From positions 1 to 49,405 of IMG/VR virus record IMGVR_UViG_3300038825_001329: a stretch of 49,405 nt of DNA; one strand, written 5' to 3'. The position numbers were made by a program, and so were the translations under genes. The notes under the pieces are model-generated. The model was not told the DNA's origin, did not search any database, and was given only the letters and a program-made list of their open reading frames with translations. This document shows positions 2,069 through 41,989 of the stretch, piece after piece (the stretch's first letter is position 1; every line of letters begins with the position of its first letter). The stretch is from a virus.

Positions 2069-2305
2069 GTGAAGCCGCAACTCAATGCGATGGCAACGGT
2101 TCTGAAAACAATTACAGATGATGGATGCGGCGTCAGCAAGCGGATGCTGGCTGACCGGCACCCCGAGCTCGCCCACCCTGATATACACGAGTGTATTGAT
2201 ATGTTGATCGGCAGTTTTAAAATAGTTCGAGCGCGAGCGATAAGTCATCGCTACAAGTCGCGTAGATTAGCTTGCTATCTGCCGGTTCGCGGAGCCAGAA
2301 AGTGA
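2069..2305 (+). CDS. Small winged-helix-like DNA-binding protein (cII position)
   Basis: 78 residues from GTG 2069, preceded by GGGGAG with a 6-base gap; the open frame extends upstream but only out of the Cro-like gene. Helices MATVLKTITDDG, VSKRMLADRH and HPDIHECIDMLIGSFKIV are followed by a short basic strand pair (RYKSRRLACYLPV), the usual helix-helix-helix-wing order. Genes like this often precede DUF1376 replication genes in phages. Its stop overlaps the GTG of the O-like gene, so the two are coupled. A role in replication initiation or control is inferred from position. Confidence 0.6.
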   Translation: MKPQLNAMATVLKTITDDGCGVSKRMLADRHPELAHPDIHECIDMLIGSFKIVRARAISHRYKSRRLACYLPVRGARK

Positions 2306-3078
2306 ATTACTACAAACGCTATCCAGGCGACTACGCCCGCGACACCCGTCATCTGACGCTGGTTGAACACGGCGTGTACACCCTGCTGCTCGACGCACAC
2401 TACGCGACTGAGCGTGGTTTACCGCAATCTGTCGACAAACTGCGTCGCATTGTCGGATCTCGAACGCGAGTCGAGGAGCGCGCGTTGATGTCTGTGCTCG
2501 ACGAGTTTTGGAAGCTGACAGACGGTGGCTGGGTTAACGCGAAAGCGCAGCAAGTGATTGATGCGGATAGGAAACGAATTGAAGCCGCGGCTGCGAACGG
2601 TAAGAAGGGCGGGCGTCCCAAGAAACCCACTGGGTTTTGTTTGGGTAACCCAGCGGAAACCCAGGGCGAAAGCTCTCCAACACCAGCACCAGCACCAGTA
2701 ATAACTAACCCCCCTATATATAGTCCCCCCAAGCCGAAACAGGCGCGGCCAACGCTTGAGCAGGTGTCCGCCTATTGCGCTGAACGAGGCAGGGGAGTGG
2801 ATGCGCAGGCGTGGTTCGACCACTACACCGCGAACGGCTGGCGCGTCGGCCGCAACTCAATGCGTGACTGGAAAGCAGCGGTGCGAACTTGGGAACGAAA
2901 TAACTGGCGAACCACGGGAGTAAAAAGCAATGGAGCGAGTGCATCAAGTAGCGCAAGCCGCGCTAAGCAGCTCACTGACTACGTCAGAAGAGGAATCGCG
3001 GGCGCCGCGGCCGAATCTCGTGGCAGCGAGGATGATATGGGCGGGGTTCGAGGTCACATTCAAAAACCGCTGGAGTAG
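2302..3078 (+). CDS. DUF1376 replication protein (lambda O-like position)
   Basis: 258 residues from GTG 2302, overlapping the previous stop, with GGAG 7 bases upstream. The N-terminus VNYYKRYPGDYARDTRHLT, then EHGVYTLLLDAHY, is diagnostic of DUF1376, found in phage replication modules and thought to bind the origin. A basic GKKGGRPKK stretch and a Pro/Thr-rich linker (about residues 105-145) follow. The C-terminal domain (WFDHYTANGWRVG, MRDWKAAVRTWERNN) resembles the C-terminal region of replisome organiser and DnaT-like proteins that contact helicase loaders. The DNA under the linker contains a cluster of ACCCA repeats, a candidate origin. The last 149 bases overlap the P-like gene in another frame. 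Confidence 0.85.
   Translation: MNYYKRYPGDYARDTRHLTLVEHGVYTLLLDAHYATERGLPQSVDKLRRIVGSRTRVEERALMSVLDEFWKLTDGGWVNAKAQQVIDADRKRIEAAAANGKKGGRPKKPTGFCLGNPAETQGESSPTPAPAPVITNPPIYSPPKPKQARPTLEQVSAYCAERGRGVDAQAWFDHYTANGWRVGRNSMRDWKAAVRTWERNNWRTTGVKSNGASASSSASRAKQLTDYVRRGIAGAAAESRGSEDDMGGVRGHIQKPLE
2623..2728. other. Candidate replication origin: ACCCA repeats plus A+T-richer tract
   Basis: Five copies of ACCCA/TGGGT fall between 2624 and 2663, in alternating orientation. They include the perfect dyad AAACCCA-C-TGGGTTT (2623-2637) and TGGGT-A-ACCCA (2642-2652). About 35 bases downstream lies a stretch containing taataacta and tatatata (2698-2722). Iterons inside the initiator gene followed by an A+T-rich element is the lambda ori arrangement. 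The repeats are shorter than classical iterons, so this is a proposal. Confidence 0.45.
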
Positions 3079-4187: not shown

Positions 4188-4662
4188 CACCCGAAAGCGA
4201 AATGTTCGTTCCGACAGAGATAAGTTGGTGGCCCTGCAGAAAGAAATCTGCGCGCTCGACTTGCGAAGGCAGGCGCTTGACCGGAAGCGAGAGCAGCTGA
4301 CTGAGCGAGAGTCAGAGCTGAAAAAGCAGATAGGTAAGCAGGACCGCATTCAGCGAAGAAAATTGTCGCGCCTGTCGCCGCCGGCGTATTCACAACGCGA
4401 CTGGGAGATTTTTTTTGAGAGAATGGCATTAGGCCGCACGTATCAAACGATTGGTGAGCACTACGACATCTCAGCAGAAAGGGCGCGACAGATTGTGCGG
4501 CGGCAGCTGCGGGCAGCAGCGGCGCTTGCAGTCATGCCAATGCCTACGTCGACGAGCGTTAACCAGCAGCGAAAACCAAAAAAAGCGAAAGGAAAAAAAG
4601 ATGGAAAAAGGTCAAACACGGCCCAGCTTTGGCAAAGCGGACCTGGTCCAGCCGAAGTTTGA
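4165..4662 (+). CDS. Coiled-coil protein with sigma-70 region 4-like HTH
   Basis: 165 residues, ATG 7 bases after AGGG. Residues about 17-62 form a charged coiled coil (KLVALQKEICALDLRRQALD, REQLTERESELKKQIGK). Residues about 76-112 read YSQRDWEIFFERMALGRTYQ, then TIGEHYDISAERARQIVRRQ: the arrangement and the ERARQI motif match the -35-binding HTH of sigma-70 region 4. The Lys-rich end derives from the duplicated cassette. Lying just before the nuclease and terminase genes, it is a good candidate for a late-transcription activator or antiterminator, but regions 2 and 3 of a real sigma factor are absent. The function is inferred. Confidence 0.65.
   Translation: MEKGQNFDTRKRNVRSDRDKLVALQKEICALDLRRQALDRKREQLTERESELKKQIGKQDRIQRRKLSRLSPPAYSQRDWEIFFERMALGRTYQTIGEHYDISAERARQIVRRQLRAAAALAVMPMPTSTSVNQQRKPKKAKGKKDGKRSNTAQLWQSGPGPAEV
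4533..4617 (+). repeat. Gene-junction cassette, copy 2
   Basis: Second copy of the 4095-4180 cassette, encoding MPMPTSTSV ... GKKDGKRS at the end of one frame and the start MEKGQ of the next. It is more diverged in its first half, while the ribosome site and start codon region is almost unchanged, pointing to selection on translation initiation. Confidence 0.75.
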
Positions 4663-4900
4663 TTCGCCAAGAATTAAGCGGCTTGACGCGATGACAGATA
4701 TGGAGATTTGCGAAATGATTCTGTCGTCACGAGGGAGAGTCGACAGGACGACGGTCGAGCTTGCCAAGCGATTGGCCATGCGTCTCGAAGAGCTTGACGA
4801 GCGGGCCGCAATCTTTGAGTACGACGGGAAGATGTCGCGCGCAAATGCCGAACGGGAGGCGCTTGAGTGGTTGCTGAGAAAAGAACGCCGAAACGAGTGA
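4601..4900 (+). CDS. Small helical phage protein, unknown function
   Basis: 99 residues from ATG 4601, within the duplicated cassette, with AAAGGA 7 bases upstream. It overlaps the preceding gene by 62 bases. The first five residues (MEKGQ) equal those of the previous gene, then the sequences diverge. The remainder is helical and charged: LDAMTDMEICEMILSSRGRV, VELAKRLAMRLEELDERAA and a C-terminal NAEREALEWLLRKERRNE. No catalytic motif is visible. It overlaps the nuclease gene by 34 bases. Confidence 0.7.
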   Translation: MEKGQTRPSFGKADLVQPKFDSPRIKRLDAMTDMEICEMILSSRGRVDRTTVELAKRLAMRLEELDERAAIFEYDGKMSRANAEREALEWLLRKERRNE

Positions 4901-27037: not shown

Positions 27038-29004
27038 TGGCGATTACTGTCAACTGGGCGACTGACCAGATCATTAATATCCCAAAAGCGGATATGACAT
27101 TGGTGCAGCTATCTCCGGTTGAGATTCGCGAGCTGGATACGGACAGCTTTTTCTTGACGCTGAAAGACTTGGAGTCCTCCATCGAGGGCATACCCTGGCC
27201 CAATACCCAACGAAATGCGTCCCCCGTACTGCTGGGCGGCATCACGTATGCACGAGTGCTTGAGATTATTGACCCCTACACCGTCACGTTTGAGGATGGC
27301 ACGTATGTCGTGCAGCTGACCGGGTCGAACAACAACCTCATTGAGCGGACGAACCCCAACCAAGTATCGGTGCAGGGCAACAACGCGGCGGGCTTAATCC
27401 AGACTCAGGAGATTCAGTACAGTTCGTTCCAGGGCGGCGTGACTATCGACCAAGCCAACGGCACGGCAGGGCAGGCGTACCCTGCTGGCACGCGGCAAAG
27501 CCCGGTCAACAACCTGACCGACGCGAAGTTCATCGCTGACCTGCGCGGCTTCGATAAATTTTTCGTTAAAGGCACGTTTACCTTTGATGTAGCCGATACC
27601 ATTGACGGGTTTGAGCTTCAGGGTGAATCTTTCACGCGCACGGTGATCAACCTCACTTCCGCTGCGACAATTGAGAATTGTAAATTTTCTAACGCTGCCA
27701 TCTCCGGTTCTCTGGATGGCGGTAACGACGTATTCTCTTGCCGAGTTGGCTCGCTCGATTATATAGATGGGGTCATATATGACAGTGAACTAGAGGTTGG
27801 CACGATTACGCTAGGCGGCACGCAAGCTGACTTTGTTCGCTGCTACAGTGGCGTCGCTGGTGGTGGACCTTCGCAAACGCCCGTGCTTGACCTGGGCGGC
27901 ACTGGCACCTCCCTTGTCATCCGAGACTATCATGGTGGCTTGACACTAACCAACTACACGAGCGGGACCGACCCTGCCTCTATTGACCTGTCGTCTGGCC
28001 GGATTACCTTCGACAGCACAATATCTGCGGGGCAGTTCGCTGTTCGCGGCGTTGGGTTTGTTGAAGACAACAGCACCGGCACTGCCATTATCAAGTCTCA
28101 GATTCTCGATGCTAACCAGATCAACTTAGCCAACTACGAAGGCTCAGTCTGGATAGACCCGTCGACGTCGAATACCGGCACAGAGTACCCGGTAGGCAGT
28201 CCTGCTGCGCCCGTCAACAATGGCGCTGACGCTCAAACAATTGCGACGCAATTGGCGCTTTACAACTTGACCATTCGCGGTAACACAACGATTACCAGCA
28301 CGCATACCAACATGAAATTCTGGGGGCGTAGTCCGCGAACCACGCAACTGACGATTGACTCAGCGGCAACGTTGTCTGGGTGTGAATTTGAATTGTTGTT
28401 GCTGACCGGCGACCTGAGCAGCAACGGGTCAAGCTATTTCATCACTGTCGCGCTCAAGGACGTGGCGGGCGTCTTCGGCCACTTGGAAGGGTGCGTGCTG
28501 CGCGAAGGCACAAACACTATCAACACGTTCGTCATGCTCAATAAATGCGCAGCGGTGAGCGCGGTCAATCCCGGCACGGACATCCCTATCCTTGACTGTA
28601 ACGGAGATGGCCGCATTGCTGCGCGGTCGCTGGATGGTGAGATCATTATCCAGAACAAGACCAGCGGCAATGATTGCTCGCTGCATCTGGAAGGCGCAGT
28701 GGTGACGTTGACCAGCACCATCACGGCAGGCACTTGGCGTTTTCATGGCGTAGGCACGGTCATTAACCAGTCCGGCGGCACGGCCGTCATTGATACGACC
28801 GACCTTGTCTCGCCGCAATCTGTTGCAGCGGCGGTAGGCGACAACGCCAAGATTGTTGACATCTTCCGGCGTTTAGACCTCGACGCCGCCGCGCCTAACA
28901 CGCACAAGAACGACAACACTGAGATCACAAACTCAGAGTTTGACTTAACCACATCCGACAATGGTGACGGCACTTACACCGTGACTCGTACAAATAACCC
29001 GTAG
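27037..29004 (+). CDS. Tail-spike-like beta-helix protein with internal duplication
   Basis: 655 residues. A short N-terminal domain (about 1-125), similar in style to virion-docking domains, precedes two related halves, each beginning with a G-x-V-x-I-D segment, followed by a Y-P-x-G-(S/T) turn and V-N-N. Each half is a right-handed beta-helix-like stretch ending with TSG, T-(S/D)-S-T-I-(S/T)-A-G and an F-x-G-V-G motif. This is typical of trimeric spikes or fibres that bind polysaccharide. No active-site acid pair can be assigned. A short C-terminal tail (FDLTTSDNGDGTYTVTRTN) closes it. Confidence 0.72.
   Translation: MAITVNWATDQIINIPKADMTLVQLSPVEIRELDTDSFFLTLKDLESSIEGIPWPNTQRNASPVLLGGITYARVLEIIDPYTVTFEDGTYVVQLTGSNNNLIERTNPNQVSVQGNNAAGLIQTQEIQYSSFQGGVTIDQANGTAGQAYPAGTRQSPVNNLTDAKFIADLRGFDKFFVKGTFTFDVADTIDGFELQGESFTRTVINLTSAATIENCKFSNAAISGSLDGGNDVFSCRVGSLDYIDGVIYDSELEVGTITLGGTQADFVRCYSGVAGGGPSQTPVLDLGGTGTSLVIRDYHGGLTLTNYTSGTDPASIDLSSGRITFDSTISAGQFAVRGVGFVEDNSTGTAIIKSQILDANQINLANYEGSVWIDPSTSNTGTEYPVGSPAAPVNNGADAQTIATQLALYNLTIRGNTTITSTHTNMKFWGRSPRTTQLTIDSAATLSGCEFELLLLTGDLSSNGSSYFITVALKDVAGVFGHLEGCVLREGTNTINTFVMLNKCAAVSAVNPGTDIPILDCNGDGRIAARSLDGEIIIQNKTSGNDCSLHLEGAVVTLTSTITAGTWRFHGVGTVINQSGGTAVIDTTDLVSPQSVAAAVGDNAKIVDIFRRLDLDAAAPNTHKNDNTEITNSEFDLTTSDNGDGTYTVTRTNNP
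27418..28830 (+). repeat. Internal gene duplication in the spike protein
   Basis: Two protein halves of about 230 residues (from about 27418 and from about 28125) align end to end at low identity with conserved landmarks: GGVTIDQ / GSVWIDP, AYPAGT / EYPVGS, SPVNN / APVNN, DSTISAG / TSTITAG, RGVGFVEDNS / HGVGTVINQS. The DNA itself is well diverged, so the duplication is old. Confidence 0.75.
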
Positions 29005-32873: not shown

Positions 32874-33392
32874 GTGCTTCAGCATCTTGGTCAAGGACAT
32901 TTTGATACCGGACAATTCGGGCAGCAGCATCTGTCGCCCGAGCCAGGCGCGGCCGTTGCCGCTTTGCGTCATCCGCGCCTTGCACACCTGGGTCAAAAGC
33001 ATTTCGACCAAGATCACTTTGGCGTCGCGCTTTCGGGTGCAACAGGCCCGACTGCTCGACTTGAGCACCCGCGTCTTGCGCATCTTGGCCAGCAGCATTT
33101 CGACCAGGACCATTTTGGCGTTGCGTTATCTGGCGTTACGCCGCCGCCGGGACCATCCGGCGAAGCTGGGGATACGTTCCCGATTGGCTGGAAAAGTGAG
33201 TTTCCTTACGCCACGTTTGCGCTGGGCTGGGTCAATCGTGCGGTTGCGCCAGAGCCTGAGCCGGGGCCACTTCCCGTCGGCGGCATGGGGATGCCGATAT
33301 TTAGGCGCGGCATTGACAAGGCGCCGCACGGCGACGACGACGAAGTGCTGATGTACGTCATACGAAAATTTTTGGAGCGCGTTGACCCATGA
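32874..33392 (+). CDS. His/Gln-rich repeat protein (HLGQxHFDQDHFG repeats)
   Basis: 172 residues from GTG 32874, overlapping the previous stop region. The first third consists of variations on HLGQ-x-HFD-x-x-(H/Q)FG; two good copies at residues 33-56 and 65-88 read HPRLAHLGQKHFDQDHFGVA-type and lie 32 residues apart, and a degenerate copy opens the protein. The rest contains FPIGWKSEFPYATFALGWVN and a Pro/Gly hinge, then FRRGIDKAPHGDDDEVLMYV and a terminal helix. A competing frame (32872-33351) is low-complexity and Arg/Leu/Ser-biased. The function is unknown; the regular His spacing might bind metal. It overlaps the polyvalent gene by ATGA. Confidence 0.72.
   Translation: MLQHLGQGHFDTGQFGQQHLSPEPGAAVAALRHPRLAHLGQKHFDQDHFGVALSGATGPTARLEHPRLAHLGQQHFDQDHFGVALSGVTPPPGPSGEAGDTFPIGWKSEFPYATFALGWVNRAVAPEPEPGPLPVGGMGMPIFRRGIDKAPHGDDDEVLMYVIRKFLERVDP
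32970..33137 (+). repeat. Tandem 72-bp coding repeats, period 96 bp
   Basis: Units at 32970-33041 and 33066-33137, both encoding HPRLAHLGQ(K/Q)HFDQDHFG VALSG (24 residues). They differ mainly by silent changes, so the amino-acid pattern is under selection. A third, weaker unit lies at about 32883-32935. Confidence 0.82.
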
Positions 33393-36300
33393 GTCTAGAT
33401 ACCTGCCTGGAATCGCTGAACTTCGACCCAGAAGATGCGGCCGAGCTACAGCAGCTTGCCGTTCGGTCTGCTGATGACGCGGGCGCAGTCGATTCGTATA
33501 TAGCTGGATTGCAAGCGGATGAGCAAAGTATTCGCGACCAACTAACGGACCAAGGCATAGACGCTCAGCCTCAAACGCTGGAGCAGGCCGCGCAAGAAAT
33601 CGACGAGCTTGTTGCGGACGCAACCGAAGGCCTGACAAGCGGCCAGCTTGAGCAGCTTGACGCCGCGATAGAAGAGGACGCAGGGCTGCTCGCGCCAATT
33701 CTTTTTCAGCGCTACGAAATGCTCGACTCAGAAGCGGACCAGCAGCGCCCTGACGGCACGCACCCGTTTCAAATGTCTACTAGGGTGCCTACAGGGAAAG
33801 ACACCGCGGGAGAGGCTGTACAGGCCGTTCATGACGGGCAGCCGCTTTCGATTGGGATAGATCAAATTTTGCAACTGGCGCCGCCCGCGCTGGAAAAGAT
33901 TGCGTCTGTGCTTAGGTCAACGCCTGGATTTAAGACGCAATCAAACGACCCGACCGCAGTTATCGAAGAGGCGGTCGAGCATGTTGTCGACAACCTCACA
34001 TGGCTGCACGACCTCGTGCTTGACCAATACCCCGAGTATATCGAGCGCAGCCACAAGTGGTACGACGGCGCTCGCCGAATAACGACGGAGTGGTCAAAGA
34101 TATACGGAGTGCCGGACCGCGCAGTCGCTGCGGTCCTGGCATCCCTTAGCCCTCAAATGGATTGGTTTAAGAATGTCACGCTGGCGCAGCGCGTTTTAGA
34201 TATTCATTCGCATCTTACGACTGGCAACACGGTCAACATGCCTGCGCTGGATTCGATGAAGGCGTATGCAGAAAGCAAATACGCTCCAAGAAAAAGGCCA
34301 AAGAACTGGGCCAAAAAAAGCGCCAAGAAAAAAGCTGAGTGGTTGGCTGAAGAGCGCGGCAATGCTATTAAGCTTCGTCAGCATAGAGATTTATTTTCCG
34401 GCGAACTACGGTACGTCGATATACCTGAAGGCAAAGAGGGCGACATTCAGCGGGCGATGTGGCTGCGTGCGTATGACGAAGCCGAGAACCCAAAACAATA
34501 CAGGCTAGTCACGCCAGAAGGGGCTTTTGGGGAGTTGGCGCTCGCCGACGACGGAGTGACGCCATTAAAAGCAGGCTGGGGGTCTTTTCGCGAAATAGGC
34601 AAAGCCATCGCCGTACTGCGAGACCCGTCTGTCGAAGGCATTAGTTCGTACATTGGGAACGAGCACAAAGTACGCAATTTTTACAACAATATTCTATCGC
34701 CAAATAGCCCCTATGGCGAAGTGACCATTGACACGCATGCCGTTGCCGCTTCCTGGCTGCTGCCATTAGGTGGTTCCGACACGCCTGTCATACAGAATTT
34801 TGGTGGAGCAGGCGCCCCCAAGAATGCGGTGACCGGGTCCGCTGGAGTTTATGGTGTTTTGGCAGAGGCCCATAGGCGGGTAGCCAATAATCCTCGGATT
34901 GCCCGCTTACCCAGGCAAGTTCAGTCTATTACCTGGGAGGCAATTCGTAGTATATTCCTACCTTCGTTCAAGAATAACGTAAACAAAGCCGCCGTTGAGG
35001 CGATTTGGGCGCAATACGAGCGCGGCGCCATTAGCAAAGATGCTGCGCGCTCACAAATATTGGAGATAGCAGGTGGACTTCGGGCACCAAAGTGGGCATC
35101 CAGCGACGACAGCAGAGATACAGCATCTGATCCGTCACGGACTGCCAGTTACGATGGAGAACTGGCTCAATCTAATATTCGATCCAGACAATATGCCGAG
35201 GGGCTCGGCGCTACGGGCGTACCTATTGGAGACGGGGACGCCCTGGGAATTGGACCCCAAATCAAACGGACCCTCTACCAGCGAGATAATAATGGACAGG
35301 CGCAACCGGATGAACGACCCGACAGCGACCGACCTGGACGAGGAAGCTTGGCAGATGCGCCTGTATCGGCAGAGCAGGGGGCGGTTCGGCTCACCGGGCA
35401 GAACGGCAGGTCGCGTCTCAAAGGATTAGAGAAGGGCAGCCCCGGCGCGGTTCCGGGGCTTCGCGAAGCAGCGGCAGACTACGCACGCAAGGCGGGCATA
35501 GAGCATGACCACCAGGCAGAATATGCAAAAATAGATGCAGAGCTGGCGCAGCGTATTGCGCAGGCATACGAAGACATGCAGCACGCGCCCAATGACCCGG
35601 CCGTGCAAGCGTCTTACGACGCCATGATTCGCGAAACCCTTGCCCAGTACGAATACATTCTGGAGCTGGGCTATACATTTAGCCCAATGGTAGAGGGTTT
35701 CGAGAACGTATACCCGACAGTGAACGAAGCGCTTGAAGACATGAGCGTCAACAAGCATTTGTGGTTCTTCCCTACTGACTTTGGCTACGGCACAAACGAA
35801 GACGGCACGCTAGGACAAATTGACGACAGCGAGATAGCGGAAAACCCACTGCTGGCTTGGACTGATTACGAGATAAACGGTCAGCGGCTACGCGCTAACG
35901 ATGTGTTTCGCATTGTTCACGATGTGTTTGGTCATGGCCTGGAAGGCAGTTTGTTTCGCGGCCGTGGAGAAGAGAACGCGTGGCAGGCGCACATTCGCTT
36001 GTACAGCGACGAAGCGGCAGGGGCCGTCACGTCAGAGACGAGGGGCCAAAACAGTTGGTTGAATTTTGGCCCGTCGGGCGAAGCAAACCGCACGGCATCA
36101 ACCGAAGACACTGTATTTGCCGAGCAGAAAATTGGGTTAATGCCAGAATGGACTTGGCGAGAAGGTAGGGCAGTTAATGAAAGCGAAGCAAAGCAAACGC
36201 ATGAAGAACGAAGATCAATTCTCGAAGCCAACGCCGCAATCGAAAGAACAGCACCTGCGCCAGTTACGAGACGCGAACAGGCCGTCTTCGGTTTACGAAG

Positions 36301-39300
36301 ACGATTTGTTGATGAAAGCAGCGGACGAATTAGGGGCGTCACCGGAGGACGTAGCAGAGATGGCGAGAATGGCAGGCTGGTAGCCAGCGACGAATTAGTC
36401 AGTGCATTTACTCAGTCTGGCTTTTCCGCGCCCGCCGTGGTTGAAGCGGACGCGGCCACATTCGTTAAGCTCATCGAACAAAGCAAAGCCGAGAGCAAAT
36501 TCGGCGCAGCCGTGTACGTGTATCCTGAGTCTGCGTACAAAGACATGCAGCTATGGGTTACCGACGACGGCAAGGCTGGATTTGCAGTTAAGCCGGACGG
36601 CGACATTGTGTCTGTGTTTAACCTGCAAGGATCGCCTCACAAGGGGGTGGTGCCGTACTTCCTAGCTCTAGCGGTTCATCAAGGCGGCACCAAGCTAGAT
36701 GCTTTTGACACAATTCTACCCTACCTGTATGCGGCGTCTGGATTTATCGAAGTTGGCCGAGACACCTGGAACGAAGAGTACAAGCCCGATGGCTGGGACT
36801 ACAAAACGTTTGAGGGCTTTAGTTTTGGGCGACCCGGCGTGGTTTACATGGAAAACCGAAACGCCGAGCAGCCGTACAGGTCTGAGGCCGATTTAACTCG
36901 CACGCTATTCCAACCGGCATTCCACGGCACACCGCACAAAGTAGACCGGTTCTCACTCCAAAAGATTGGCACCGGAGAAGGCGCCCAAGCGTACGGGTGG
37001 GGACTCTATTTTGCGGAGAGTCAGGACACGGCCGAGAGTTATCGAGACTTTCTTAGCCCCATGAGAATTGAGGTTGAAGGTCACATCTGGGACAGCGAGA
37101 ACCCAAGGCACCATGCCGTGCAGGCGTATCGCGCAAGTGGCTTTGACGCGGTCCTGGCTGCTGCCGAGCTTAACAAAGATGCCGACAACATGGAGGCCCA
37201 CCTGCGAGAGGTAGGCGGCTGGGACTTTGCATCAGCGACAAAAAAGTTTGTCGAAAGGGACCGAGCAGCTGCGGCTATCCTAGAAGCAGAGGGCGTCCCA
37301 GCCCATGAGCAAATATCAACGGGCAACATCTACACGGTAGACATTGCAGACGGCGCCGTTGAAAACATGCTGGATTGGGATGCGCCGCTGAGCGAGCAGC
37401 CGGAAGCGGTAAGAGCGCATTTGCCTGATTTAATTGCGCCAAACAGAGATGAGCTTTTAAGCACACTTCAAGACTTGTTCGATACGCAGGCCCCGCCTGG
37501 ATATTCGCAAGAGCGCTTTGATCGGGTTGTGCAAGAGGCGCTAGAGTTCGGTGGCTATGGCGACGAGTTCGGCACGAGTGTATGGGACGAAATAAACGAG
37601 GCCACGGGCGGGTTTATTGATGGGGAATCCGAGTTTGCGCGCATTGGCGACACTATTTCGCCAAGTGATACAGGAAGGCAACTTTATCAACTACTGGATT
37701 CGTCTCTCGGCGGCGCTGACAAGGCTTCCGCTCGCCTCAACGAGCTAGGCATCCCTGGCATCAAGTATTGGGATAGTGGTAGTCGCGCAGCAGGCGAAGG
37801 CACGCGCAATTTTGTGGTGTGGGATGAAGACGCCATCACAATGTTGCAGGAAAACGGGCAGCCGGTTGCTGACCAAGAAAAGAGCGCGATACTGAATCAG
37901 CCTGCTACTGCAACAGCGGAAGCTGACCCACTTGGCTCAACCGAGTTTCAGCCAGAAAAAACTATCATCACGCTATTTGAGCGCGCAGACAAATCGACGT
38001 TCTTGCATGAAAGCGGGCATGTTTTTGTGGCGCTGATAGAGCGCATGGCATTGGCGCCAAACGCGCCGCAGCGAATCAGAGACATTTACACCGACATGCT
38101 AAAACTCGTGGGCGCACAAAGCGCTTACGACATGGATGCGTTCGACCCGACCAAAACAAAAGAGGAGCGAAAGGCGGCAGAAGAGCGGCAAGAAATATTG
38201 GCGCGCTCATTTGAAAAGTATTTGATGGAGGGCAAAGCGCCAAGCCCGCGGCTCAAAACAGCATTTGCCACGTTCCGCCGTTGGCTCACTTTTATTTACA
38301 CGCGGTTGCGCAGACTGGGTACAACCTTGTCGCCGGAGATCAATGACGTTTTTGACAGGATGTTGGCGACCGATGAAGAGCTGCAGATGATGCGCGAAAG
38401 CGCAGGCATCGACGTTAATGCGTCGCCAACGATTGCGGCCATGATGGAAGGTCCAGAGGCCGCGGCTTACTTGGCTGCAAAAGACGAGTCTGAAGAACTA
38501 GACCGAGAGCGCTTATTGCAGGTCGAGGCAGAGTTGGAGCAGGCCGAGAAAGAGGCCGCATGGCAGGCCGCCTATGAGGCGGAGCGGAAGCAAGTAGCTG
38601 CAGAATTGTGGGCTATGCCGCAATACAAGGCTTGGCTATTCCTGACTGGCGGCACGCTGCCTGCTGAGTCAGATGCGCCGATAGGGCGGCTTAAGTTGCG
38701 TCAAAGGCTGCAAGGCCAGCGCCTCGACAAAAAAGCGCTGACCGACGCTGGCTTTTCGGCGAAAGAACTTGCGGCCATTCCAAGAGGGCCACGCGGCAAG
38801 GCTGTGTACACTCCCAATGGTGCGAGCCCGGAGCTTTTGGCCTCAGCCCTTGGCTACGAAGATGGCGCCGCCCTGGTGGCCGCCATGCGAGATTTGGCGC
38901 CACCGCAAGACATTATTGATAATGAGTCTGCAAAGCGCGTTAGGCAGAAACTTGGAGACCCCGCGAACGACGGTACGCGAGAGCGGCTTATCCGTGAGGG
39001 GCTATATCACGAGGCGCGTCAAAAGGTAATTTTGGCCGAGCTAAACGCGCTCGCAAAGATTGCCGGCAAGCCAAAGACAACACGAGTTTTGGCCAAGGCA
39101 ATGGCGGATGAGATTATTAGCCTGACGCCATTGCGCGACTTGCTGTCGCCGCTGAAATATGAGGCGGCGTCAGTACGTCATGCACAAGAGGCAGAAAGAC
39201 GTGCCGCGGCGGGCGACACACTGGGGGCTTACGAAAGCAAGCAGCTGCACTTGCTTAACCATGAGATGTTTCGAAAAGGCTTAAAGATTCGCGATGAAGT

Positions 39301-41989
39301 AAGGCGCCAGCGTAAGCGGCTGCGCAAACTTCAAACGGGCAAGATTGACCCGAAGCGGGTGTCGCCTGAATACATTGGTCAATTGAAGAATCTTCTCAAT
39401 GTATTTGGCTTAAAGGATTCGCCAAAACAGTTCCAGGCAGCTGGCCGCATCCCGCAAGAAAGCCAAGCTTTGGCGTCCAGCGTGATGGGGTGGATTGAAG
39501 CAAAGCAGGCACAAGGGGAGGCGCTAAGCGTACCAGGCGAGCTTGCTACAGTTGGCGACTTCGACGAAAACGGATACCAGCCTAAGCTGTTTCTGCTGAA
39601 ACATTGGTCAGAGATGACAGCCGGAGAATTTTCTGCGCTAAACGACTTGTCGATTATGATCGAAAACATAGGGCGCCGTAACTCAGAAGCTGAGCGCGTG
39701 AAGCGTGGATTGTTTCACATGGAACTGCAGAGGTCGATTCGGGAGAAAACAAAAGCCAGGCCGCGAAAAGCGGTGAAACCTGGCTATATTGCAACATCAG
39801 TGCAAGAAGCAGCCGCGGCTAAAAAGAACTGGTTCCTCGCGGCTCACAGGAAAATAGAAAGTTTTATTCGAGAGCTTGATGGGTTTGATGACATGGGGCC
39901 GATGTGGAGAGCCCTTTTCCGCCCATTACAAGCTGGCGAAGACGCGAAGGGGGAGATGAGCGCAATTATTGTTAAGGCGATGGGCGACATTTTCGGAGCT
40001 TATGGCTTTGACGAGCGCCGACGCATGTCCAGCAATGGCGCGACGTGGTATCAAAGTAATTTATTCAACGGGTCGGCGATTCAGGTTCCCGGCATCAGCG
40101 CTTCTGTTAGCCTTTCCCACGAGCAGCGGCTAGTAATTGCACTCAATGCCGGCAACGAAAGTTCGCTCGCGGCTTTGCTGGCCGACGAGGCGCTGAAAGA
40201 CGATTTCACGCCAAGGGACAGAGACGGCAACGCAATCGGAGAAACCGAGTGGAACGCGGCGTCGTTGCAAATAGTTTTGGACATGCTCACCGGCAAAGAC
40301 AAAAAGGTTGTGCGGCAAATTTTCGAGCTGGTCGACTCGTTTTGGGAAGATATCTACGACGACAGCGGACGCTTTTTGTCGATAGGGATTAAGAATCTCG
40401 AAAAACAAGAGACGGGCGTCGTGCCACCAAAAGTAGCCCCGCTCGCCTTTACGTCTAACGGCGAAGCAATTGCTGGCGGCTATTACCCGCTTAAGTACAA
40501 CCCGCACAGGAGTGAGCGAGTCGCCAACGAAAAGGCTGCAGACATTATGTCAGCCGTGACGGGCGGCAACCCTGGGTCGGCCATGACGTCGCATAACCAC
40601 ACGCTAGCGCGCAAAGGGTCAGGAGGTCGCCCGATCCGACTAGGCTTTGATGCGTTAATGGAGCATTTCGAGCAGGTCACGCAGGATTTGGCATTTCGAC
40701 AGGCTGTGATTAACGCTGACAGAATTCTGAAAGACCCAGGTATCAGCGACGCTATTAAGGACGTCATCGGTGAGTCTGGACTGAAAGAAATGCGGACAAC
40801 GATCATGACTGTTGCACAAGGAAGCAGCGGCGGCGTCTCCCCTGCTGACAAGACTTGGCGCTGGTTTCGTTTGAAAGCGTCAAACGCGATTATGGGCCTC
40901 AACCTGAGAAGTGTGCTGAGCCAGCCTCTTGGGTTGTTTCAATCTTTGAGCGTTATTGGCCCTGTTTATTTTGCCAGGGGCCTCATCCAATGGTATTTAA
41001 CGGGCAGCAATTTAGGCTCAAATGTATTGGCTGCCAGGCCACCGATTTATTCGCACTACAAACAGACTCGACAGGTATTTGCCAAGAGCGTGTTTATGCG
41101 GAGGCGCGCGCGTTCTGCGACGCGGGAACTAAACGAGGTTCAAAACAAAATTGGCATTCCAGGTGTTGCCAAGGCGGTGCAAAAAGTAGCTTTTGCGCCC
41201 ATGATGTACTTGGACGTTTTCTCGGTCGCCATGCCAACATGGCTGGGCGCATATGAAAAAGCAATGGCTGGCAATGCCAAAGGGGTGCGAGCAGGCGACG
41301 AGGCCTCGGCGATTGAGTACGCCGACATGGCCGTGCGTAGGTCGCAGGGAACTGGCGGCAATCTTAATCTGGCAAACATTCAGTCGCAAAGCGAGCTTGG
41401 CAAGTTAATAACGATGTTCGGCTCGTACTTTAACACCACCTACCAGTTGCAGACTGAAGCATGGCGACAAATCGGTCAGTCAGATGGCGTGGTTGACGGC
41501 GCAAAAAACTTGGCCGGATGGGCGTACCATTCGACTATTCTTACCCTGATCCCCGGCGTGCTCGGCGCGTTGCTCCTTGAGAACTTCACAGAGGAAGACG
41601 AGAAGAAAATGTCGCACTCGGAATGGCTTGCTTTGCAGACTTTTTTGTATGCAACCGGGCAGGTGTTTTTAGTGCGGGATATAGCTTCGGCTACTGCGTC
41701 TGGATTTGACCCATCGCTAAGCCCTGCGGAGTCGGTAGGAAAAGCCGCTGTAGGTGGAGTTAAGGAGGTGGTACAAATGGCTACAAGCGAAGATTACGAA
41801 TTGGATGCACCAGCCGTGAAGGCGATGGCAAGAGCTGTTGGTTTTGTGGGTGGTGTTCCTGGCACAAATCAAATAATTAGGTCGGGTGAATGGCTGCACA
41901 AATACGAGAAAGGCGATCTCAGCAACCCAGTTGAAGACGTTTGGACGCCGGAAGGTATGCAGCGATTGCTGCTAACAGGGGATAGATAG
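33389..41989 (+). CDS. Giant polyvalent protein (co-ejected multi-enzyme protein)
   Basis: 2866 residues in one unbroken frame, starting with an ATGA overlap. Regions in order: helical N-terminus; about 200-555, a domain resembling that annotated DUF7178 (WYDGARRITTEWSKIYGVPD, VTIDTHAVAASWLLPLGG); linker 562-681; about 690-925, a domain with HDVFGH at 844-849 and EENAWQAHIRLYSDEA; linker 930-999; about 1000-1140, a GNAT-like domain (AGFAVKPDGDIVSVFNLQG, LDAFDTILPYLYAASGF); about 1177-1480, an ADP-ribosyltransferase-like domain opening FHGTPH (His 1179) with YGWGLYF and IKYWDSGSR; about 1520-1600, a zincin with HESGH at 1540-1544; about 1600-2130, coiled coils; about 2130-2866, a C-terminal helical domain of the large polyvalent type with a hydrophobic helix near 2720. 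Proteins of this build are thought to enter the cell with the DNA and counter host defences. Two small genes are nested in the linkers. Confidence 0.85.
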   Translation: MSLDTCLESLNFDPEDAAELQQLAVRSADDAGAVDSYIAGLQADEQSIRDQLTDQGIDAQPQTLEQAAQEIDELVADATEGLTSGQLEQLDAAIEEDAGLLAPILFQRYEMLDSEADQQRPDGTHPFQMSTRVPTGKDTAGEAVQAVHDGQPLSIGIDQILQLAPPALEKIASVLRSTPGFKTQSNDPTAVIEEAVEHVVDNLTWLHDLVLDQYPEYIERSHKWYDGARRITTEWSKIYGVPDRAVAAVLASLSPQMDWFKNVTLAQRVLDIHSHLTTGNTVNMPALDSMKAYAESKYAPRKRPKNWAKKSAKKKAEWLAEERGNAIKLRQHRDLFSGELRYVDIPEGKEGDIQRAMWLRAYDEAENPKQYRLVTPEGAFGELALADDGVTPLKAGWGSFREIGKAIAVLRDPSVEGISSYIGNEHKVRNFYNNILSPNSPYGEVTIDTHAVAASWLLPLGGSDTPVIQNFGGAGAPKNAVTGSAGVYGVLAEAHRRVANNPRIARLPRQVQSITWEAIRSIFLPSFKNNVNKAAVEAIWAQYERGAISKDAARSQILEIAGGLRAPKWASSDDSRDTASDPSRTASYDGELAQSNIRSRQYAEGLGATGVPIGDGDALGIGPQIKRTLYQRDNNGQAQPDERPDSDRPGRGSLADAPVSAEQGAVRLTGQNGRSRLKGLEKGSPGAVPGLREAAADYARKAGIEHDHQAEYAKIDAELAQRIAQAYEDMQHAPNDPAVQASYDAMIRETLAQYEYILELGYTFSPMVEGFENVYPTVNEALEDMSVNKHLWFFPTDFGYGTNEDGTLGQIDDSEIAENPLLAWTDYEINGQRLRANDVFRIVHDVFGHGLEGSLFRGRGEENAWQAHIRLYSDEAAGAVTSETRGQNSWLNFGPSGEANRTASTEDTVFAEQKIGLMPEWTWREGRAVNESEAKQTHEERRSILEANAAIERTAPAPVTRREQAVFGLRRRFVDESSGRIRGVTGGRSRDGENGRLVASDELVSAFTQSGFSAPAVVEADAATFVKLIEQSKAESKFGAAVYVYPESAYKDMQLWVTDDGKAGFAVKPDGDIVSVFNLQGSPHKGVVPYFLALAVHQGGTKLDAFDTILPYLYAASGFIEVGRDTWNEEYKPDGWDYKTFEGFSFGRPGVVYMENRNAEQPYRSEADLTRTLFQPAFHGTPHKVDRFSLQKIGTGEGAQAYGWGLYFAESQDTAESYRDFLSPMRIEVEGHIWDSENPRHHAVQAYRASGFDAVLAAAELNKDADNMEAHLREVGGWDFASATKKFVERDRAAAAILEAEGVPAHEQISTGNIYTVDIADGAVENMLDWDAPLSEQPEAVRAHLPDLIAPNRDELLSTLQDLFDTQAPPGYSQERFDRVVQEALEFGGYGDEFGTSVWDEINEATGGFIDGESEFARIGDTISPSDTGRQLYQLLDSSLGGADKASARLNELGIPGIKYWDSGSRAAGEGTRNFVVWDEDAITMLQENGQPVADQEKSAILNQPATATAEADPLGSTEFQPEKTIITLFERADKSTFLHESGHVFVALIERMALAPNAPQRIRDIYTDMLKLVGAQSAYDMDAFDPTKTKEERKAAEERQEILARSFEKYLMEGKAPSPRLKTAFATFRRWLTFIYTRLRRLGTTLSPEINDVFDRMLATDEELQMMRESAGIDVNASPTIAAMMEGPEAAAYLAAKDESEELDRERLLQVEAELEQAEKEAAWQAAYEAERKQVAAELWAMPQYKAWLFLTGGTLPAESDAPIGRLKLRQRLQGQRLDKKALTDAGFSAKELAAIPRGPRGKAVYTPNGASPELLASALGYEDGAALVAAMRDLAPPQDIIDNESAKRVRQKLGDPANDGTRERLIREGLYHEARQKVILAELNALAKIAGKPKTTRVLAKAMADEIISLTPLRDLLSPLKYEAASVRHAQEAERRAAAGDTLGAYESKQLHLLNHEMFRKGLKIRDEVRRQRKRLRKLQTGKIDPKRVSPEYIGQLKNLLNVFGLKDSPKQFQAAGRIPQESQALASSVMGWIEAKQAQGEALSVPGELATVGDFDENGYQPKLFLLKHWSEMTAGEFSALNDLSIMIENIGRRNSEAERVKRGLFHMELQRSIREKTKARPRKAVKPGYIATSVQEAAAAKKNWFLAAHRKIESFIRELDGFDDMGPMWRALFRPLQAGEDAKGEMSAIIVKAMGDIFGAYGFDERRRMSSNGATWYQSNLFNGSAIQVPGISASVSLSHEQRLVIALNAGNESSLAALLADEALKDDFTPRDRDGNAIGETEWNAASLQIVLDMLTGKDKKVVRQIFELVDSFWEDIYDDSGRFLSIGIKNLEKQETGVVPPKVAPLAFTSNGEAIAGGYYPLKYNPHRSERVANEKAADIMSAVTGGNPGSAMTSHNHTLARKGSGGRPIRLGFDALMEHFEQVTQDLAFRQAVINADRILKDPGISDAIKDVIGESGLKEMRTTIMTVAQGSSGGVSPADKTWRWFRLKASNAIMGLNLRSVLSQPLGLFQSLSVIGPVYFARGLIQWYLTGSNLGSNVLAARPPIYSHYKQTRQVFAKSVFMRRRARSATRELNEVQNKIGIPGVAKAVQKVAFAPMMYLDVFSVAMPTWLGAYEKAMAGNAKGVRAGDEASAIEYADMAVRRSQGTGGNLNLANIQSQSELGKLITMFGSYFNTTYQLQTEAWRQIGQSDGVVDGAKNLAGWAYHSTILTLIPGVLGALLLENFTEEDEKKMSHSEWLALQTFLYATGQVFLVRDIASATASGFDPSLSPAESVGKAAVGGVKEVVQMATSEDYELDAPAVKAMARAVGFVGGVPGTNQIIRSGEWLHKYEKGDLSNPVEDVWTPEGMQRLLLTGDR
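35073..35429 (+). CDS. Overprinted small gene 1 inside the polyvalent gene
   Basis: 118 residues from GTG 35073 with a good ribosome site (TGGAGA, 7 bases from GGAG to GTG). It lies in the +1 frame relative to the host gene and covers exactly the low-complexity linker between two polyvalent domains (residues 562-681). The product looks like a natural protein: TTAEIQHLIRHGLPVTMENW, FDPDNMPRGSALRAYLLETG, then ATDLDEEAWQMRLYRQSRGR. Codon third positions look G+C-biased, as in real genes here. The main frame across the same DNA is Ser/Gly/Arg/Asp-rich with no apparent fold. The family is unrecognised; the Trp/Leu spacing suggests a small helical protein. Confidence 0.65.
   Translation: MDFGHQSGHPATTAEIQHLIRHGLPVTMENWLNLIFDPDNMPRGSALRAYLLETGTPWELDPKSNGPSTSEIIMDRRNRMNDPTATDLDEEAWQMRLYRQSRGRFGSPGRTAGRVSKD
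36177..36383 (+). CDS. Overprinted small gene 2 inside the polyvalent gene
   Basis: 68 residues from ATG 36177 with AAGGTAGGG ending 6 bases upstream. It is in the same alternative frame as the other nested gene and covers the second linker of the polyvalent protein (residues 930-999). A basic N-terminus (MKAKQSKRMKNEDQFSK) leads to HLRQLRDANRPSSVYEDDLL and a helical end MKAADELGASPEDVAEMARM with a terminal Trp, with clear amphipathic helices and no low-complexity bias. The host frame here is an Arg/Gly-rich linker. The function is unknown. Confidence 0.65.
   Translation: MKAKQSKRMKNEDQFSKPTPQSKEQHLRQLRDANRPSSVYEDDLLMKAADELGASPEDVAEMARMAGW

Follow-up and report, generated by a model that had tools for sequence, protein, structure and literature searches.

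Two putative small genes overprinted in the linkers of a giant polyvalent phage gene, one of them related to companions of the DUF7178 domain

The viral record IMGVR_UViG_3300038825_001329 (the window, i.e., the whole stretch of DNA that was analysed, 49,405 nt) has a giant polyvalent gene on the + strand at 33389..41989, which encodes a protein of 2866 aa in what is termed here frame 0. Two open reading frames (ORFs) are nested in it on the same strand: ORF1 at 35073..35429 (GTG start, 118 aa) and ORF2 at 36177..36383 (ATG start, 68 aa). The locus raises the question of whether these are genes and, if they are, how they came to lie inside another gene. The original prediction, made from the window alone, offered two answers, that small genes between separate domain genes had been swallowed by frame-bridging fusion or that new genes had been born in disordered linkers. 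From the sequence comparisons presented here, ORF1 and ORF2 are very probably genuine small protein genes, with ORF1 engulfed by the giant gene.

Both ORFs are in the +1 frame relative to the giant gene, as had been predicted, and their stop codons map to residues 681 (ORF1) and 999 (ORF2) of the giant protein. Along the giant protein, homologues of its domains show breaks at residues 569, 676-937 and 1003; thus both ORFs lie between domains and cover linkers. Length alone is not evidence for either ORF, since 38% of versions of the giant gene with shuffled synonymous codons contain a shifted ORF as long as ORF1 (118 codons) or longer. The probability that the +1 frame stays open exactly in place under such shuffling is 0.0065 for ORF1 and 0.07 for ORF2. 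The G+C content by codon position in the +1 frame is coding-like (.58,.49 and.69 in ORF1;.55,.39 and.64 in ORF2), and that of frame 0 is abnormal in both intervals. A close relative, viral contig IMGVR_UViG_3300030090_005560 (L001), 71% identical, has both ORFs intact within its own giant ORF. The Shine-Dalgarno sequence of the ORF1 GTG start at 35073 is GGAG (35062..35065, + strand; -6.4 kcal/mol, with an identical value in the relative), and that of ORF2 is AGAAGG (36160..36165, + strand; -8.4 kcal/mol, -8.6 in the relative). The good ribosome sites and protein-like composition first seen in the window are thus borne out.

The two sequences were compared by synonymous rate, the share of differing codons among codons for the same frame-0 residue. 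This rate is 45% in the flanks, compared with 15% in ORF1 (Fisher 4.8e-8) and 15% in ORF2 (Fisher 6.7e-6). A blind scan of the giant gene for the lowest rates returned residues 586-663 and 945-999 as the two lowest stretches, with rates of 0.08 and 0.10, against 0.50 for comparable genes. When the scan is extended over all comparable genes, the bottom consists of 35144-35377 and 36221-36385, together with one other stretch at 0.10, 2644-2826. The latter lies in gene 2272-3078 and shows no obvious + strand ORF. A further stretch of the giant gene, 37757-37927 (residues 1457-1513), has a rate of 0.20 and no open + strand alternative frame; it perhaps reflects an RNA signal or a recent exchange.

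At the protein level, the window and its relative share 80% aa identity in ORF1 and 78% in ORF2. Given the number of nucleotide changes in ORF1, identity in the +1 frame is.797 as opposed to.648 with random placement of the changes (P<5e-5). Frame 0 over the same interval shows.712 as opposed to.67, which is not significant. Thus +1 is the frame under selection in ORF1. Over the ORF2 interval both frames are constrained, and this pair of sequences alone does not separate +1 from frame 0. An alternative to be considered at this point is that neither ORF is translated, the +1 frames being open by chance or shadowing a frame-0 protein or RNA element that is under constraint. The lengths of the ORFs are within chance for the giant gene, an RNA element alone could lower the synonymous rate, frame 0 is as conserved as +1 in ORF2, and low-synonymous stretches exist at 37757-37927 and 2644-2826 without an obvious + strand ORF. 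The conservation of ORF1 in +1 but not in frame 0 is at odds with such an origin, as are several properties of the gene families to which the ORFs are assigned below.

Immediately upstream of ORF1, and overlapping its start, the giant gene encodes the DUF7178 domain (33776..35098, + strand; residues 130-570 with a hidden Markov model (HMM) built here; Pfam PF23802, 4.5e-22), which serves as the anchor of the ORF1 gene family. Most of the DUF7178 homologues collected have a small +1 gene at the 3′ end of the domain. This companion usually begins about 5-20 codons before the end of DUF7178, extends about 45-55 codons beyond it, and has the consensus ..DPVL..L...GLPLTRENYL.LAY..G.PPE.L.AE.E..LP..FR. 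Its arrangements range from convergent antisense through overlapping and nested to fully engulfed in a polyvalent gene. DUF7178 stops directly after a conserved ..GGI..P.W end in 28 loci, and the companion is free-standing. Frame 0 runs 60-83 codons past DUF7178 and then stops in another 21, so that the companion is nested in a C-terminal extension; in about 20 it continues through the companion into further domains. The companion of the remaining type (6 loci) is on the opposite strand, convergent with DUF7178, and has its own Shine-Dalgarno sequence. These counts do not represent independent events, as some of the DUF7178 loci are near-duplicates and a few were fetched with overlap.

A profile HMM was built solely from the free-standing companion genes and run on six-frame segments of the DUF7178 loci. 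It matches a companion in 79 of the 98 loci fetched, 73 times in +1 and six times antisense. Frames 0 and +2 are without a match, as is every other place in the 46,436 six-frame segments. All 21 nested companions and 19 of 26 engulfed ones are recovered. ORF1 of the window is matched with E=8e-4 by this profile, over a region confined to about 24 residues, and with E=6e-7 by a family profile made without the window or its relative; with both profiles it is among the top two matches of all frames, the other being ORF1 of the relative. The family core corresponds to residues ~14-62 of ORF1 and the remainder is an extension. These matches place ORF1, as a divergent member, in a conserved DUF7178-companion gene family, some members of which stand free beside DUF7178.

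Companion starts have a median Shine-Dalgarno energy of -7.5 kcal/mol versus -2.2 for control ATGs (p=3e-26), where each locus was represented by its best ATG among at most a few. Of 23 further pairs, 22 have a synonymous rate in the overlap that falls below background, 18 of them with p<0.05; as some loci enter two pairs, the pairs are not fully independent. Frequent +1 stops, an absence of extra constraint and a lack of free-standing homologues, the pattern expected if the ORFs were not genes, were sought and not seen: none of 64 non-redundant loci has a +1 stop between codons -5 and +15, and the depressed synonymous rate of the window recurs in most pairs. The core of the family is predicted to be a compact three-helix protein (predicted local distance difference test (pLDDT) >90). 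Because antisense copies exist, a frame-0 shadow is excluded as the whole explanation of the ORF1 family. With ORF1 homologues free-standing or antisense where frame 0 does not read through, a folded core predicted for the family, and strong start sites in both this family and that of ORF2, it is very unlikely that the ORFs are chance frames or shadows.

The start of ORF1 in the window departs from that of its family. The family-typical ATG opens a frame at 35040..35069 (+ strand) that is closed in the window by a TAG at 35067 after 9 codons. The relative keeps this ATG form open (MLRALRYWRWQVDF...), and codons 516-574 of the giant gene, around the family ATG, have a synonymous rate of 0.12 between the two. 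Since the ATG is cut off, translation of ORF1 probably starts at the GTG at 35073 or by re-initiation. A suppressor tRNA that reads the TAG was also considered and rejected, as no tRNA is present in the window. The missing open ATG would also fit a programmed +1 frameshift as translation leaves DUF7178, whereby the +1 segment is an alternative C-terminus and no separate protein is made; upstream, the open +1 frame often reaches into DUF7178, and the end of that domain is where conservation starts. However, companion starts differ by lineage (-19, -15, -12, -5), each with a strong Shine-Dalgarno sequence, in three loci (L141, L163, L151) the +1 frame is closed by stops shortly before the start, and frameshifting cannot produce antisense copies. 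Frameshifting is thus considered very unlikely indeed.

If ORF1 is a gene with its own start, its position inside the giant gene calls for an explanation. ORF1 was probably swallowed, because its relatives occur elsewhere as an ordinary neighbouring gene, and loss of a stop codon or fusion of neighbouring genes is the most likely route. The DUF7178 tree, which is unrooted for direction, requires 11 changes for the engulfed state, and well-supported branches force at least five of these. Swallowing by frame-bridging fusion is thus favored for ORF1 by the 28 free loci, the 6 antisense loci and the 11 tree changes; it is one of two candidate origins for ORF2, whose relatives are nearly always overprinted. 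The other answer, de novo birth of small genes inside a fusion protein that already existed and whose linkers were already disordered, fits some relatives (e.g., L008) that have a similar frame-0 linker without the small gene. The free-standing and antisense homologues of ORF1 and the repeated changes of state stand against it, as does the dominance of +1 in selection over the overlap. For ORF1 de novo birth is not needed.

ORF2 is followed after 2 codons by an acetyltransferase-like domain encoded in frame 0 (phrog_2563 by profile match; 36386..36898, + strand), the anchor of the ORF2 gene family; relatives of this domain in Streptomyces phages carry the annotation acetyltransferase. An ORF2 homologue is found in Limnohabitans phage DC33 directly upstream of the same domain. 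(Its record, PQ492659.1 (L015), covers 39 kb, includes a giant polyvalent gene and places the phage in the Inoviridae, an apparent taxonomy error; a predicted engulfed small gene of this phage is at complement 27566-27781.) In a scan of viral sequences, most of 88 loci have a +1 ORF that ends 2-22 codons before the acetyltransferase-like domain and shares the C-terminus ..LTRxxAxEMAxxFGF. The start sites have better Shine-Dalgarno sequences than control positions (p=2e-15). ORF2 of the window, with frame 0 open, falls within the ~25 codons that define the family by position. The family profile ranks it first among 1746 six-frame segments, and it lies where the family predicts. In ~95 other loci the middle domain of the giant protein is without a conserved +1 gene after it, and ORF2 is grouped with the downstream domain for this reason. 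ORF2 would therefore belong to a second small-gene family by position and constraint, and weakly by sequence.

In 84 of the 88 ORF2-family loci the open frame 0 extends upstream by more than 150 codons, and no clearly free-standing ORF2 ancestor is known. This favours birth within a linker, which stays a candidate for ORF2, almost every relative of which is overprinted; for the locus as a whole it is considered unlikely. Homology of the ORF1 and ORF2 families is unsupported (hhalign probability 3.6%). Likewise unsupported is the idea that the domain upstream of most ORF2-type genes is a remote DUF7178 (7.8%); Pfam matches L211 and, at cut-off, L215. In L033 and L092/L216, DUF7178 directly precedes the acetyltransferase-like domain and one continuous +1 ORF fills the interval with an ORF2-type end; that of L033 has an ORF1-type start in addition. 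Gene 4 of Microbacterium phages UtzChips, Caron and Barnstormer (L176, L257, L258), a minor capsid gene, has a natural-looking +1 ORF (MALPITEEERLAFLRRQEPTATPEELE...) with low synonymous change between its capsid and acetyltransferase-like domains; in UtzChips (OQ190482.1) the predicted small gene is at 4589-4732.

Several points weigh against the view that both ORFs are genes and that ORF1 was engulfed. The reality of the genes and the engulfment are both read from sequence, and most of the contigs compared are metagenomic. The direction of change, fusion versus later splitting, is unrooted on the DUF7178 tree. ORF1 lacks the usual ATG of its family, cut off by the TAG, and at 118 aa both it and its counterpart in the relative are longer than the usual 60-75 aa or so, by a C-terminal extension. 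The free-standing profile finds no match in 19 of the 98 DUF7178 loci, and neither DUF7178 nor the companion core has a fold match in the PDB. As for ORF2, its +1 identity in the pair is.779 compared with.756 at random placement, i.e., without excess, and its profile match is weak (E=0.014; 0.0023 for the relative), a narrower profile missing it.

The giant gene itself has the make-up of a polyvalent protein, one long polypeptide with unrelated domains of effector type, namely DUF7178, phrog_3170, phrog_2563, ART-PolyVal (below cut-off) and phrog_9880 (residues 1484-2848). Its middle domain, between the two ORFs, is phrog_3170-like by profile match and has an HDVFGHG motif in frame 0 (35414..36199, + strand). 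The AlphaFold2 model of DUF7178 has a mean pLDDT of 90. A motif resemblance of DUF7178 to HhH-GPD DNA glycosylases was unsupported by sequence or fold searches of the PDB. In a search that covered a minority of subscription papers, no paper naming DUF7178 was found, and earlier reports are possible. Between the domains of the giant protein there are repeated occurrences of a short (L/I)(F/Y)Q-type motif (PILFQRYEM, KRTLYQRDN, TRTLFQPAF, GRQLYQLLD), which is also found in other polyvalent proteins; it is possibly a processing site. The window and its relative differ by a reshuffling of the ADP-ribosyltransferase region (residues ~1200-1480), where the relative has several hundred extra residues.

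These results suggest a scheme in which the stop of DUF7178 was lost, or downstream domains were fused to it, so that the companion was engulfed repeatedly. The companion would be kept under selection, and the frame-0 linker would be largely its out-of-frame shadow, which is proposed as the reason for the low complexity of the linker. ORF2 would be an equivalent small gene ahead of the acetyltransferase-like domain, and both ORFs would be read from their own internal ribosome sites on the giant mRNA. In the last and weakest step, each companion may bind its neighbouring domain in the producing cell as an inhibitor, chaperone or packaging escort. Partnership with DUF7178 is suggested by the close association, which holds in either orientation and at any overlap; a binding partner of this kind is conceivable but rather less probable than its absence. 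Extended to polyvalent proteins in general, the linkers may in part be out-of-frame readings of engulfed companions, each still making a cognate inhibitor or escort, as modules of a domain plus a hidden partner that annotation systematically misses; this extension is put forward tentatively.

Searches of Pfam, PHROGs, NCBIfam and PADLOC gave nothing convincing for the small proteins, and neither family is in Pfam, PHROGs or NCBIfam. A tblastn search of phage isolates with both ORFs and with the free-standing companions gave no match. Profiles made from two sequences retrieved nothing from viral and genome collections but the close relative and, in the genome collection, one distant locus (L007) without the small genes. 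Two undescribed small-protein families are added for phages. For DUF7178, found in multi-domain phage proteins and of unknown function, they supply a candidate partner, and they suggest a possible reason why some inter-domain linkers look disordered. The series of antisense, overlapping, nested and engulfed intermediates would show how embedded genes arise, which for the spanins has only been hypothesised.

The two-component spanins Rz/Rz1 exist embedded, overlapped and separated; the shared DNA underlies the flexible linker of Rz, and loss of an upstream stop codon has been proposed as one route to embedding (PMC6139136). The present genes share with Rz/Rz1 a small +1 partner that overlaps a larger gene or is embedded in it, and the occurrence of several architectures. 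Inspection of ORF1 and ORF2 for the spanin hallmarks (the transmembrane anchor of the i-spanin and the lipoprotein signal of the o-spanin) showed no hydrophobic or lipobox N-terminus; their identity as spanins was thus rejected, and the comparison is one of workings only. The host gene also differs from Rz, as it is polyvalent, has many domains and continues into further ones, and the products are not lysis proteins. No spanin family was found to combine embedded with other architectures (PMC6139136), whereas one homologous family, that of ORF1, spans antisense, overlapping, nested and engulfed states. The host gene resembles the polyvalent proteins of phages and conjugative elements (Iyer et al. 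2017, PMC5512222) in its great length, many domains and ART-PolyVal-like domain. The hidden companions would add a layer to these proteins; a text search of that paper returned no mention of overprinted or overlapping genes or of linkers. As in the overprinted orphan genes of bacteria (e.g., PMC4683798), a small alternative-frame gene has been missed by annotation. However, the bacterial orphans are argued there to have been born de novo, whereas ORF1 has free-standing homologues and was probably engulfed.

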